Source: Sinomonas notoginsengisoli
Lineage (GTDB): Bacteria > Actinomycetota > Actinomycetes > Actinomycetales > Micrococcaceae
Direction: 5' to 3'
Length of the DNA stretch: 64,000 bases
Assembly: GCF_021554725.1 (NCBI RefSeq)
Contig: NZ_JAIZDP010000006.1
Span: 1 to 64,000, forward strand
Shown: positions 16,483 to 57,993 of the stretch, one piece after another
Layout of the letters: each line of letters starts with the position of its first letter
Position numbering within the stretch: the stretch's first letter is position 1
The notes under the pieces: model-generated
What the model was told of the DNA's origin: nothing
Databases searched by the model: none
Seen by the model: only the letters and a program-made list of their open reading frames with translations
Translations under genes and position numbers: made by a program

Positions 16483-16884
16483 TCAGTAGCCGTAGCTTGC
16501 CAGCAGCCGTTTTGAGGGCACGATCTCCTTGCCCAGGGGCATGAGCGAGACCGGGATGAGCTTGAGGTTCGCGATGGCCAGCGGAATGCCGACGATCGTT
16601 GACGCCATGGCAATCGCGGTCGCGACGTGGCCGATCGCGATCCAGATTCCTGCCACGAGCAGCCAGATGATGTTGCCGACCGTGGACGCGGCCCCGACAC
16701 GGCCGCCCCTGTCCACGATGGTGCGCCCGAACGGCCAGAGGGCATACGAGGCGATGCGGAAGGAGGCGATGCCCCACGGGATGGTGATGATCAGCGCACA
16801 GCAGACCACACCGGCGAGGAAGTATCCGAGGGCCAGGACGAAGCCGCCGAAGATGAACCAGATGAGATTCAGAAGGGTCTTCAT
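16483..16884 (-). CDS. YccF domain membrane protein
   Basis: 133 residues. Two copies of the YccF pattern are visible: LNLIWFIFGGFVLALGY then IPWGIASFRIASYALWPFG, repeated as VGNIIWLLVAGIWIAIGH and IVGIPLAIANLKLIPVSLMPLG. It has about four membrane segments. ATG 16884 is preferred over GTG 16890, which would add only two residues. Function unknown. Confidence 0.9.
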   Translation of the reverse strand: MKTLLNLIWFIFGGFVLALGYFLAGVVCCALIITIPWGIASFRIASYALWPFGRTIVDRGGRVGAASTVGNIIWLLVAGIWIAIGHVATAIAMASTIVGIPLAIANLKLIPVSLMPLGKEIVPSKRLLASYGY

Positions 16885-17000
16885 AGTCACCAGTCTGCCG
16901 CTAATACGGCCGCCGGCAGTAGTCCTCCCGGTCTTCGGTCCCCGCCCTCCGCTGGAAGGGCGACCGGTTGCTAGCCTAGGGGAAGAGGCGTTCAGGCCTC

Positions 17001-17042
17001 CCGGACGAGGGAACCCAGTACCCGGAAAGCGACAAGACTGGC
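17001..17042 (+). promoter_or_regulatory. Guanidine-III (ykkC-III) riboswitch
   Basis: The segment contains CCGGACGAGG, GTACCCGG and GACAAGAC in order and spacing, as in the guanidine-III aptamer. P1 pairs CCGG 17001-17004 with 17022-17025. The pseudoknot helix pairs CCAGT 17015-17019 with ACTGG 17037-17041, a compensated change from the known T. fusca element. It lies directly upstream of the ribosome binding site AGGAAAGG (17043-17050) of the SMR pair. GAGGGAACCC (17007-17016) can alternatively pair with GGGTTCCTC (17049-17057) just before the ATG, suggesting translational control. Confidence 0.9.
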
Positions 17043-17057
17043 AGGAAAGGGTTCCTC

Positions 17058-17372
17058 ATGTCCTGGCTCGTCCTTCTCGGTTCCGGCGCCCTCGAGGCCG
17101 TGTGGGCCGCAGCCCTCGAACGCTCACGCGGCCTCCGCGCGCCGCTGCCCACGCTCGTCTTCGCGTGCGCGTTGGCGGCGAGCATGGGCGGGCTGGCATG
17201 GGCGCTGATCGAGATCCCCGTCGGCACTGGCTATGCAGTCTGGGTCGGGGTGGGAGTGGTGCTCACCGCTGTCTACGCGATGGTCCGGCGCCTCGAGCGG
17301 ACGACGGCGGCACGCATCCTCGCGCTCCTGGGCATCGCCGCGTGCGTCGCCGGGCTCAAGGCGGTGGGCTAG
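17058..17372 (+). CDS. SMR-family exporter subunit, probable guanidinium exporter
   Basis: 104 residues with four membrane helices. The proton- and substrate-binding Glu13 sits in ALEAVWA, and GTGYAVWVGVG is the helix-3 signature. The guanidine-III riboswitch upstream points to export of guanidinium, as in Gdx/SugE and YkkCD proteins. It lacks the Lys/Pro typical of SugE homodimers after Glu13, so it probably pairs with the SMR protein encoded two bases downstream. Confidence 0.9.
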   Translation: MSWLVLLGSGALEAVWAAALERSRGLRAPLPTLVFACALAASMGGLAWALIEIPVGTGYAVWVGVGVVLTAVYAMVRRLERTTAARILALLGIAACVAGLKAVG

Positions 17373-17374
17373 CA

Positions 17375-17767
17375 ATGGCGTGGCTCGTTCTCCTGTGCTC
17401 TGCAGTGCTCGAGGCGGTGTGGGCCACGGCGCTCTCGGCCTCCGAGGGCTTCACGCGGCTCGGGCCCTCGATCCTGTTTGCCGTGGCCACGGCCGCGAGC
17501 ATGGCTGGCCTCGCCTATGCGATGCGGCGCATTCCACTCGCGACGGCCTACGCCGTATGGGTAGGCGTGGGCGCATCTCTCACCGTTGGGTGGGCCATGC
17601 TGACAGGAGCCGAGGCGTTCAGCTGGCCGAAGCTCGCGCTCATCGCCGGTATTGTCGCGTGCTCGGCCTGGCTCAAGGCCCTGGGGGCGCGGGACGCCGC
17701 CGCGGTCCCGGGGGACGCGGCGGCGACGCCGGGCGCTACTCCGCCGAGGCCCGGGGACCTCCAGTGA
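17375..17767 (+). CDS. SMR-family exporter subunit, SugE/Gdx-like
   Basis: 130 residues: about 105 form the SMR four-helix core and the last 25 are a Pro/Gly/Ala tail. Glu13 (VLEAVWA) is conserved, and SEGFTRLGPSI with TAYAVWVGVGA closely matches SugE/Gdx. The 2-base gap after the first SMR gene implies a heterodimeric exporter under the same guanidine riboswitch. The 3' end overlaps the convergent PNPOx-like gene by 32 bases. Confidence 0.9.
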   Translation: MAWLVLLCSAVLEAVWATALSASEGFTRLGPSILFAVATAASMAGLAYAMRRIPLATAYAVWVGVGASLTVGWAMLTGAEAFSWPKLALIAGIVACSAWLKALGARDAAAVPGDAAATPGATPPRPGDLQ

Positions 17768-18224
17768 ACTGCGAGACCCAGCGGGAAGGGTCGGCCACAC
17801 GGAACTGCCGGCCCGTGACCTCCGCCGGGACGATCCGCACGAAGAATGCCTTCTCCCCAGACTGCCAGGGGAACAGCGGCAGCGCGACGGCCTCGACGAT
17901 CTCGGAGGTGTCCAGCACGGGCTCAAGCACTCCGTGGACTACAACGGACCACGCCTCGTTGGCCTCCGCCTCATAGCCGTCCACCTCGAACACCACGGGG
18001 AGGTGCTCCATGGAGGCCGCGAGCTTGGTGCCCGGCGCGGTGCGGAAGAGCACGGTTCCGCGGTCCACCAGGTAGTTGATGGGGAAGAGTTCGATCCGAT
18101 CGCCGCCGCTGAAGGCCAGCCGGCCGACGACCATGGTGCGGGTGCGGTCCCACGCGTCCTCTGGAGAGAGGTTGCGGACGCCTTCGGACTGGGTCGGGTT
18201 CGTGCGGCTCTCGTGCGTGCTCAT
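17736..18224 (-). CDS. Pyridoxamine 5'-phosphate oxidase-like flavin-binding protein
   Basis: 162 residues. It has the split-barrel pattern of PNPOx-like proteins: VGRLAFSGGDRIELFPINYLVDRGTV, FRTAPGTKLAASME and VVFEVDGYE. These small proteins bind FMN, F420 or heme, and the exact substrate cannot be read here. It lies just beyond the helicase terminator and is probably transcribed alone. Confidence 0.85.
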   Translation of the reverse strand: MSTHESRTNPTQSEGVRNLSPEDAWDRTRTMVVGRLAFSGGDRIELFPINYLVDRGTVLFRTAPGTKLAASMEHLPVVFEVDGYEAEANEAWSVVVHGVLEPVLDTSEIVEAVALPLFPWQSGEKAFFVRIVPAEVTGRQFRVADPSRWVSQFTGGPRASAE

Positions 18225-55929: not shown

Positions 55930-56008
55930 GAGTAATGAGCGCCAGCGCCAAGCCCTGACTTGCTGGCCGGCAACCCTCCAAGTGGCGGGGTGCCTCAGGT
56001 GAGTACTC
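55930..56008 (+). promoter_or_regulatory. SAM-IV riboswitch
   Basis: The core shares the SAM-IV pattern: GCGCCAGCGCCAAGCC, CTTGCTGGCCGGCAACCC, then GGCGGGGTGCCTCAGGTGA. The outer helix GAGTA 55930-55934 with TACTC 56004-56008 closes it. SAM-IV occurs in actinomycetes and represses sulfur/methionine genes when SAM is high. It precedes the DUF1737-rhodanese-metZ operon by 43 bases. Confidence 0.9.
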
Positions 56009-56051
56009 GGCATTCGTTTCCTCGATACGCAAGCTACGAAGGAGTCCCGCC

Positions 56052-56790: not shown

Positions 56791-57993
56791 GTGAGCTTTG
56801 GCAACAATCATGAGATATCGAGCAGCTGGGCCGAGGACACCCAGGCTGTGCGCGGCGGGCTCCTCCGCACCGAATTCCAGGAGACTTCGGAGGCGGTGTT
56901 CCTTAACTCAGGGTTCGTCTACGAGTCCGCCGAGGCGGCCGAGCGGGCGTTCACCGGTGAGGACGAGCGGTTCGTGTACTCGCGCTACGGCAACCCCTCC
57001 GTGGCAACCTTCCAGGAACGGCTCCGCCTGCTCGAGGGCACTGAGGCCTGCTTCGCAACGGCGTCCGGAATGTCGGCCGTGTTCACCGCCCTGGCGGCGC
57101 TGCTCGGGGCCGGGGACCGGGTCGTGGCGGCGCGGAGCCTCTTCGGCTCGTGCTTCGTGATCCTCAACGAGATCCTCCCCCGGTGGGGGGTTGAGACGGT
57201 GTTCGTTGACGGACCGGACCTGAACCAGTGGCGCGAGGCGCTGTCGGTGCCAACCACTGCCGTGTTCTTCGAGTCTCCGTCCAACCCTATGCAGGAGCTC
57301 GTGGACATCCAGGCCGTCGCGGACCTCGCCCACGCGGCGGGGGCCACCGTCGTCGTCGACAACGTCTTCGCCACTCCCCTGCTGCAGCGCAGCCTCGACT
57401 TCGGCGCGGACGTGGTGGTGTATTCAGGCACGAAGCACATCGACGGGCAGGGCCGTGTGCTCGGCGGCGCAGTGTTGGGGACCAAGGACTTCATCGATGG
57501 CCCCGTGAGGAACCTGATGCGCCACACCGGGCCTGCGCTCTCGGCGTTCAACGCCTGGGTGCTGACCAAGGGGCTCGAGACGATGGGGCTGCGTGTGCGG
57601 CACTCGTCCGCGAGCGCCCTCGCTATTGCCGAGTGGCTCCAGGAGCAACCGCAGGTGAGCTGGGTGAAGTACCCGCACCTGCGCTCCCACCCCCAGTACG
57701 AGCTCGCCCGCAAGCAGATGAGCGCCGGCGGGACGGTACTCACGTTCGAGGTCGAGGGCGGCAAGGAGGGCGCGTTCCGCCTGCTCAATGGCCTCGAGGT
57801 CATCGATATCTCCAACAACCTCGGCGACTCGAAGTCCCTCATCACGCACCCCGCGACCACTACCCACCGGGCCATGGGGCCCGAGGGTCGGGCTGCGATC
57901 GGCTTGGGCGACGGCGTGGTCCGGCTCTCCGTGGGCCTCGAGGACGTCGGTGACCTCATCGGCGACCTCGCTCGGGGGCTCGGCGCCGGCTGA
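56791..57993 (+). CDS. metZ: O-succinylhomoserine sulfhydrylase
   Basis: 400 residues from GTG 56791. A PLP-dependent gamma-family enzyme. It carries the Schiff-base Lys in VYSGTKHIDGQGRVLGG, phosphate-site FVYSRYGNP and ATASGMSAVFTAL, and SDSKSLITHPATTTHRA-type C-terminal motif (GDSKSLITHP). It makes homocysteine directly from O-succinylhomoserine and sulfide. SAM-IV control fits this step of methionine supply. Distinction from cystathionine gamma-synthase rests on the rhodanese partner and motif resemblance. Confidence 0.92.
   Translation: MSFGNNHEISSSWAEDTQAVRGGLLRTEFQETSEAVFLNSGFVYESAEAAERAFTGEDERFVYSRYGNPSVATFQERLRLLEGTEACFATASGMSAVFTALAALLGAGDRVVAARSLFGSCFVILNEILPRWGVETVFVDGPDLNQWREALSVPTTAVFFESPSNPMQELVDIQAVADLAHAAGATVVVDNVFATPLLQRSLDFGADVVVYSGTKHIDGQGRVLGGAVLGTKDFIDGPVRNLMRHTGPALSAFNAWVLTKGLETMGLRVRHSSASALAIAEWLQEQPQVSWVKYPHLRSHPQYELARKQMSAGGTVLTFEVEGGKEGAFRLLNGLEVIDISNNLGDSKSLITHPATTTHRAMGPEGRAAIGLGDGVVRLSVGLEDVGDLIGDLARGLGAG

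Follow-up and report, generated by a model that had tools for sequence, protein, structure and literature searches.

Pairs of SMR genes under guanidine control are familiar from B. subtilis, where ykkCD is governed by a guanidine-I (ykkC) riboswitch; the pair that we describe here lies behind an aptamer of class III. For this aptamer the described counterpart is the guanidine-III (ykkC-III, RF01763) aptamer of Thermobifida fusca (PMC5696562, in the sections available to us), with which it has in common the conserved blocks, the pseudoknot of helices P1 and P2 and a position before an emrE/sugE-type gene. The same sections expect translational control for guanidine-III and term the mechanism less well established, and a translational ON switch is expected both in T. 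fusca and in our locus. A 2025 review (PMC12186494, in its accessible part) describes translational control by guanidine-III, plus protection from RNase E. With regard to the transporters, the accessible text of PMC9574504 gives the features of Gdx proteins as a central Glu, Trp16, Ser42, Tyr59, Trp62 and a GXG fulcrum, identifies structure 6WK9 as Gdx-Clo, and puts the share of Gdx that come from paired genes at ~20%. The paired SMR transporters of that text are adjacent genes with opposite Arg/Lys biases near -4 and +4, as in the pair analysed here.

We analysed a stretch of 64,000 nucleotides from Sinomonas notoginsengisoli (contig NZ_JAIZDP010000006.1, positions 1 to 64,000; hereafter the window, to which all positions refer unless a locus is named), in which a first-pass annotation had read a guanidine-III riboswitch before a pair of SMR exporter genes and had suggested a search with the Rfam covariance model as a check. 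That model, RF01763, matched the plus strand at 16982-17045 over its whole length (model positions 1-67) with 43.1 bits, above the gathering score of 36, and this was the single guanidine-III match found in the whole genome. Inspection of the sequence located all of the conserved blocks, CCGGACGAG, GUACCCGG and GACAAGAC, that the annotation had reported in the aptamer. Its coordinates began at the aptamer core and omitted a 5' hairpin (GAGGC/GCCUC, 16985-17000), which belongs to the Rfam model, lies upstream of the ligand-binding core and is present in both the Rfam alignment and the minimum-free-energy (MFE) fold. The core itself (17001-17045) is, by class comparison, a putative H-type pseudoknot, an assignment supported by the match to RF01763 and by covariation of P2 across 207 leaders. 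Taking the published pseudoknot (PMC5696562, as far as accessible) as an analogue, we read P1 as CCGG 17001-17004 paired with CCGG 17022-17025, and P2 as CCAGU 17015-17019 paired with ACUGG 17037-17041. The compensated change that had been noticed in the pseudoknot helix is real: it is the P2 pair A17017-U17039, at a position where most leaders have C-G. It is not peculiar to this locus, the equivalent pair being C-G in 161, A-U in 44 and U-G in 2 of the 207 leaders, and the leaders with A-U are spread over several genera and families.

Two conserved strands of the core are of particular concern here. Core 1, GGACGAG (17003-17009), is complementary to CUCGUCC at 17067-17073 (codons 4-6), and its GGAC is complementary also to GUCC at 17060-17063; core 2, GACAAGAC (17031-17038), is the proposed partner of GUC-AUG-UC in relatives. 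A Shine-Dalgarno-like GAAAGG (17045-17050) is located 7 nt before the start codon. The ATG is separated from the aptamer end by 12 nt, whereas in T. fusca the aptamer is 16 nt from the ribosome binding site (PMC5696562, sections available to us). Terminator-based control was rejected after a simple scan of 16850-17900, which returned no terminator-like site. Judged from its sequence, the window riboswitch is an ordinary guanidine-III switch, and the short linker, the Shine-Dalgarno-like element, the result of the terminator scan and the literature proposal for the class all fit a translational ON switch.

The two exporter genes lie on the plus strand, and gene B starts 2 nt past the stop of gene A. 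Subunit A (17058-17372, 104 aa) and subunit B (17375-17767, 130 aa, with a Pro/Ala-rich C-terminal tail) matched Pfam PF00893 with 58.4 and 69.6 bits, respectively, the cut-off being 23.7 bits. Their Arg/Lys biases, calculated by the formula of PMC9574504 (from its accessible text) with loop borders set by hand on the alignment, are -5 for A, which is outward-biased, and +4 for B, which is inward-biased, and such values are those of a fixed-orientation heterodimer. The earlier reading of a paired SMR exporter was thus borne out by the Pfam matches, the adjacency of the genes and their opposite charge bias, and so was its observation of Glu13 in both products. In the alignment the set E13, W16, S42, Y59, W62, G64 and G66 is complete in both subunits (the fulcrum of A reads GVG, and the binding-site residues of B are as in A), and it is also found in 30 of 30 B subunits of the pairs that we gathered. 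Gdx-Clo (6wk9, 6wk5) and E. coli SugE have E13, W16, S42, Y59, W62 and the GXG in common with both window subunits; they are each encoded by one dual-topology gene, whereas the window has two genes of opposite charge bias. The top solved-structure match of each subunit was 6wk5 (53.1 bits for A, 57.1 bits for B), with 6wk9 in the same row. Among NCBIfam models SugE scored highest for both subunits (72.7 and 71.2 bits), below its equivalog cut-off of 126 bits, so that the curated name would not apply, and none of the NCBIfam SMR models listed reached its cut-off for either subunit. Because the SugE scores stay below that cut-off, guanidinium is a substrate that we infer. The two genes probably form a two-part guanidine pump, as we predict from these features, in which A and B would insert with fixed orientations opposite to one another, contributing one Glu13 apiece to a shared site.

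To place the pair among its relatives, we compared loci that carry the aptamer. An SMR gene was present within 1.5 kb downstream of it in 84 of 90 first-round loci, and 14 of these had a pair; at the other six (L002, L007, L013, L014, L025 and L084) we found a guanidine-III aptamer and no SMR gene within that distance. Subunit A was outward-biased and first, and B inward-biased and second, in 30 of 30 pairs; 143 of 157 single SMR genes scored a charge bias of 0. For a tree we used 30 A and 30 B sequences together with the 81 single genes that were left of the 157 after thinning at 80% identity; it has few columns, 82 of 138 inner branches open and a root that was not inferred. In it 28 of the 30 B fall in one group (support 95), all 30 A fall with two B in another (support 96), and 3 changes account for the labels A, B and single. 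Since A and B are grouped across pairs on this tree, the Sinomonas pair most likely derives from an old duplication whose products occur today in several families of Micrococcales, which they reached through descent or transfer. Two other origins were rejected, namely two unrelated single genes rather than a pair (by charge bias and tree) and a recent duplication specific to Sinomonas (by the grouping of A and B across families). The Gdx pairs behind guanidine-III at L327 and L330 (family f79) have their A and B clustered together on long branches, apart from the other 28 pairs, which suggests that they were duplicated independently. All pairs were gathered through the aptamer, except that at locus L101, and the tree is therefore uninformative on pairs elsewhere.

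The operon of the window is bordered upstream by a divergent yccF gene (16483-16890, minus strand) and downstream by a convergent pyridoxamine-oxidase-like gene (17736-18224, minus strand), which overlaps gene B at its tail. Of the 15 listed genomes of the genus (G000, G401, G455, G478, G498 and others), 4 gave a guanidine-III match, a patchy distribution in Sinomonas. At L101, in Sinomonas genome G515, positions 1301-1900 show the same yccF-side neighbourhood as the window and an SMR pair of like kind; there was no guanidine-III match anywhere in that genome, none was seen in the short intergenic region, and the aptamer has probably been lost there. The two Sinomonas pairs form a natural comparison: in the sister genome both genes are kept at the same site and the aptamer is missing. 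Elsewhere in the window, a SAM-IV riboswitch was found at 55931-56041 (plus strand, 77.4 bits); the following plus-strand ORF of at least 150 aa (400 aa) begins at 56791, after a long gap, and looks like a Cys/Met-metabolism PLP enzyme, to which family we presume it to belong.

In our view it is quite probable that the guanidine-III riboswitch activates translation of an operon whose two genes encode a heterodimeric Gdx-type guanidinium/proton antiporter. Without guanidine, aptamer strands would base-pair to the initiation region and impede the ribosome; the ligand would stabilise the pseudoknot, withdraw those strands and so free the initiation region. For the off-state the first-pass annotation had proposed a competing helix between 17007-17016 and 17049-17057, next to the start codon. 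We computed ensembles with folding programs that ignore the pseudoknot, and the values that follow refer to pseudoknot-free folds. When the RNA ended at the AUG, the pairs 17012-17016:17049-17053 had probabilities of 0.84-1.0; when the 5' hairpin and the sequence to 17090 were included, these inner pairs dropped to 0.45 and the outer pairs 17007-17010:17054-17057 stood at 0.01-0.02. The outer pairs are lost because GGAC 17003-17006 pairs with GUCC 17060-17063 (0.42-0.43). In an RNA ending at 17075, GGACGAG 17003-17009 paired with CUCGUCC 17067-17073 at 0.62-0.71, and in longer RNAs at 0.01-0.03. The off-state that we predict for the window leader is the helix of GGAC with GUCC, next to part of the helix proposed earlier; the pairing of GGACGAG with CUCGUCC would be an alternative only in the RNA ending at 17075. 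Pairing of aptamer strands with the initiation region would be the common thread of these models, and the exact partner in the window leader is uncertain.

In relatives of the window leader the nucleotides at the start codon suggest a further partner. The trinucleotide GTC ended at position -1 in 96 of 207 unique guanidine-III leaders before SMR genes, which are not independent events (on a tree of poor resolution the GTC label has to change 59 times, no fewer than 11 of these changes being on starred branches); it ended at -2 in 1 of 207. Before other genes it was present at 3 of 165 starts from 40 regions of riboswitch-carrying genomes, all of which contribute, these starts having been picked by a strict home-made gene caller that chooses by Shine-Dalgarno score. 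A first background, for which two Rhodococcus plasmid regions without annotated genes were set aside, consisted of Arthrobacter plasmid genes and had it in 5 of 96. Among SMR starts without the aptamer, a pattern-defined set that includes second genes of pairs, distant SMR relatives and a few doubtful start picks, it was found at 1 of 38, that one being the second gene of a pair, and among second genes of pairs at 1 of 26. The first set of leaders (124, from loci L001-L186) had GTC in 50, made up of 9 of 14 in the phylum sample, 15 of 51 in the own family and 26 of 59 in the named genomes. In held-out leaders from the order search, which were read after the hypothesis was fixed, the search itself having been run shortly before, GTC ended at -1 in 46 of 83, some of these leaders being related to the first set, from which only identical leaders were removed. 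The 83 came from 105 loci used, of which 12 gave no leader and 10 repeated the first set or each other; 19 order-search matches outside the family, mostly the weakest, had been left out.

The sequence GUC-AUG-UC is the complement of the aptamer strand GACA-A-GAC (GACAAGAC) with one A.A mismatch, and in many relatives the off-state would be a helix that spans the start codon, formed by GACA-A-GAC and GUC-A-UGUC, with this mismatch at the A of AUG. Of the 207 riboswitch genes, 96 have UC as the first two bases of codon 2; aptamer-free SMR starts have it in 2 of 38 cases and second genes of pairs in 0 of 26. All 96 serines at codon 2 are UCN and none is AGY, whereas AGY is used for 379 of 1317 serines further along these genes and, in background genes, for 18 of the 34 serines at codon 2. 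We folded the 79 held-out leaders in which the linker does not exceed 30 nt and GACAAGAC is exact, together with swapped chimeras whose last six linker bases were taken from background genes. The mean probability of pairing between GUC and the second GAC of core 2 was 0.44 in native leaders and 0.07 in chimeras, the native leader scoring higher in 44 of 79 cases; for UGUC with GACA the values were 0.46 and 0.24, with the native leader ahead in 50 of 79. Pairing of GUC with core 1 was rejected as the main off-helix, its ensemble probability being 0.013 where the second GAC of core 2 reaches 0.44, and pairing of GUC with the P2 3' strand beyond GAC was rejected too, there being no covariation at -4. 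Between codons 4-7 and GGACGAG the longest complementary run was 5.38 in the 207 genes and 4.90 in synonymous draws. These observations point to an off-state that actinobacterial guanidine-III leaders may share, in which GACA-A-GAC clamps the initiation codon and codons 4-6 are open to pairing with GGACGAG; the start codon would then have the sensing core itself as its repressor, and the constraint would enter the coding sequence (codon-2 Ser always UCN). We advance this proposal tentatively, at a confidence slightly short of even. The off-state so described lies outside the 67-position Rfam model.

Several results bear on whether other explanations would account better for these leaders. That the local helix 17007-17016:17049-17057 is itself the switch, covering the Shine-Dalgarno spacer for as long as guanidine has not folded the aptamer, seems doubtful to us. 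The helix can form, for its inner part is present in the MFE of 5 of 5 stretches folded and reaches the high probabilities given above if the RNA ends at the AUG, and nearly the same strands are present at L079, in a sister genome. However, in the window leader it was not above chance, whether compared with 200 shuffled linkers (p = 0.075) or with the linkers of other loci (p = 0.11), and its outer part is gone once codons 2-3 are present; among the four aptamer-bearing leaders of Sinomonas, L079 uses other pairs in its own MFE, L081 has the helix partially and L083 not at all. The window leader did not fold better than its own shuffles (z 0.53 and -0.37). Across 83 leaders the class had no surplus of competing helices (p <=0.05 in 5 of 83, median z -0.03), and as a class-wide platform this helix was ruled out, not being above shuffle or swap. 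The translational switch that had been modelled on it fits the leader layout, and the particular helix is not statistically established. As to the clamp on the start codon, the window has CUC, not GUC, and therefore lacks its common form, with only the UC at +4,+5 remaining; UGUC:GACA of core 2 has an ensemble probability of 0 there, and the four Sinomonas aptamer leaders read CUC, CUC, CCC and CCC before the start. For the relatives, it may be argued that YGUC before the start and UCN at codon 2 reflect initiation context or codon preference only, and not an RNA helix. GUC and UC vary independently (Fisher p 0.52), so one continuous helix is not proven, and alanine codons at codon 2 are unusual too (GCA in 32 of 84, compared with 181 of 2994 later in the same 207 riboswitch genes), which means that other start-site pressures act. 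Nor was covariation decisive in the 204 leaders used for it (3 of the 207 were left out): the base adjoining GUC showed no clear covariation (70% paired, shuffled 66%), and the next base beyond was paired in 75%, against 65% when shuffled, with 0 of 1000 shuffles as high and all 12 U-A cells from one genus. We consider the support from covariation for the clamp to be weak. Reversed core strings, which were meant as controls, were also enriched in complement, more weakly (runs of at least 5: reversed core 2, 25 of 139 against a background of 8 of 165; core 2 itself, 45 of 139 against 10 of 165), and pyrimidine composition therefore explains part of the signal. The Shine-Dalgarno element is not predicted to be hidden, being unpaired in held-out leaders at 0.52 in native RNAs and 0.49 in chimeras (p 0.22); the start codon showed a slight drop in accessibility, 0.375 against 0.429. 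In the first set there was no clear difference (Shine-Dalgarno 0.524 against 0.523; AUG 0.424 against 0.452, p 0.06). Against initiation context as the sole cause stand the rarity of GUC at SMR starts without the aptamer, second genes and other genes, its anchoring exactly at -1, and the fact that its complement is a conserved aptamer strand, and we regard that explanation as rather unlikely.

It is also conceivable that the riboswitch acts mainly on mRNA stability, the folded pseudoknot blocking RNase E scanning, and not on initiation. The accessible part of the review PMC12186494 attributes an RNase E effect to guanidine-III, citing Richards and Belasco 2021; because it describes both effects, such protection would be an addition more than an alternative, and as the principal mode of action, which would leave the shared nucleotides around the start codon unexplained, it appears to us improbable. 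That the pair exports a substance other than guanidinium, for example quaternary ammonium compounds, could be argued from the failure of every listed SMR model to reach its NCBIfam cut-off; the top score of SugE for both subunits, the complete Gdx binding site and the guanidine aptamer in front make it very improbable. Our preferred reading continues to be translational activation, by guanidine, of a heterodimeric Gdx-type antiporter.

The locus itself is the expected combination of known parts, and adjacent heterodimeric Gdx genes were already known. We found no description of GUC before the start codon in the open literature, as far as it was accessible, a scope that did not include the class validation by Sherlock and Breaker 2017. 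The presence of GUC at -1 in so large a part of the guanidine-III leaders provides a specific and cheap test of guanidine-III translation control. The clamp, if true, would mean that a regulatory RNA constraint reaches into synonymous codon choice.
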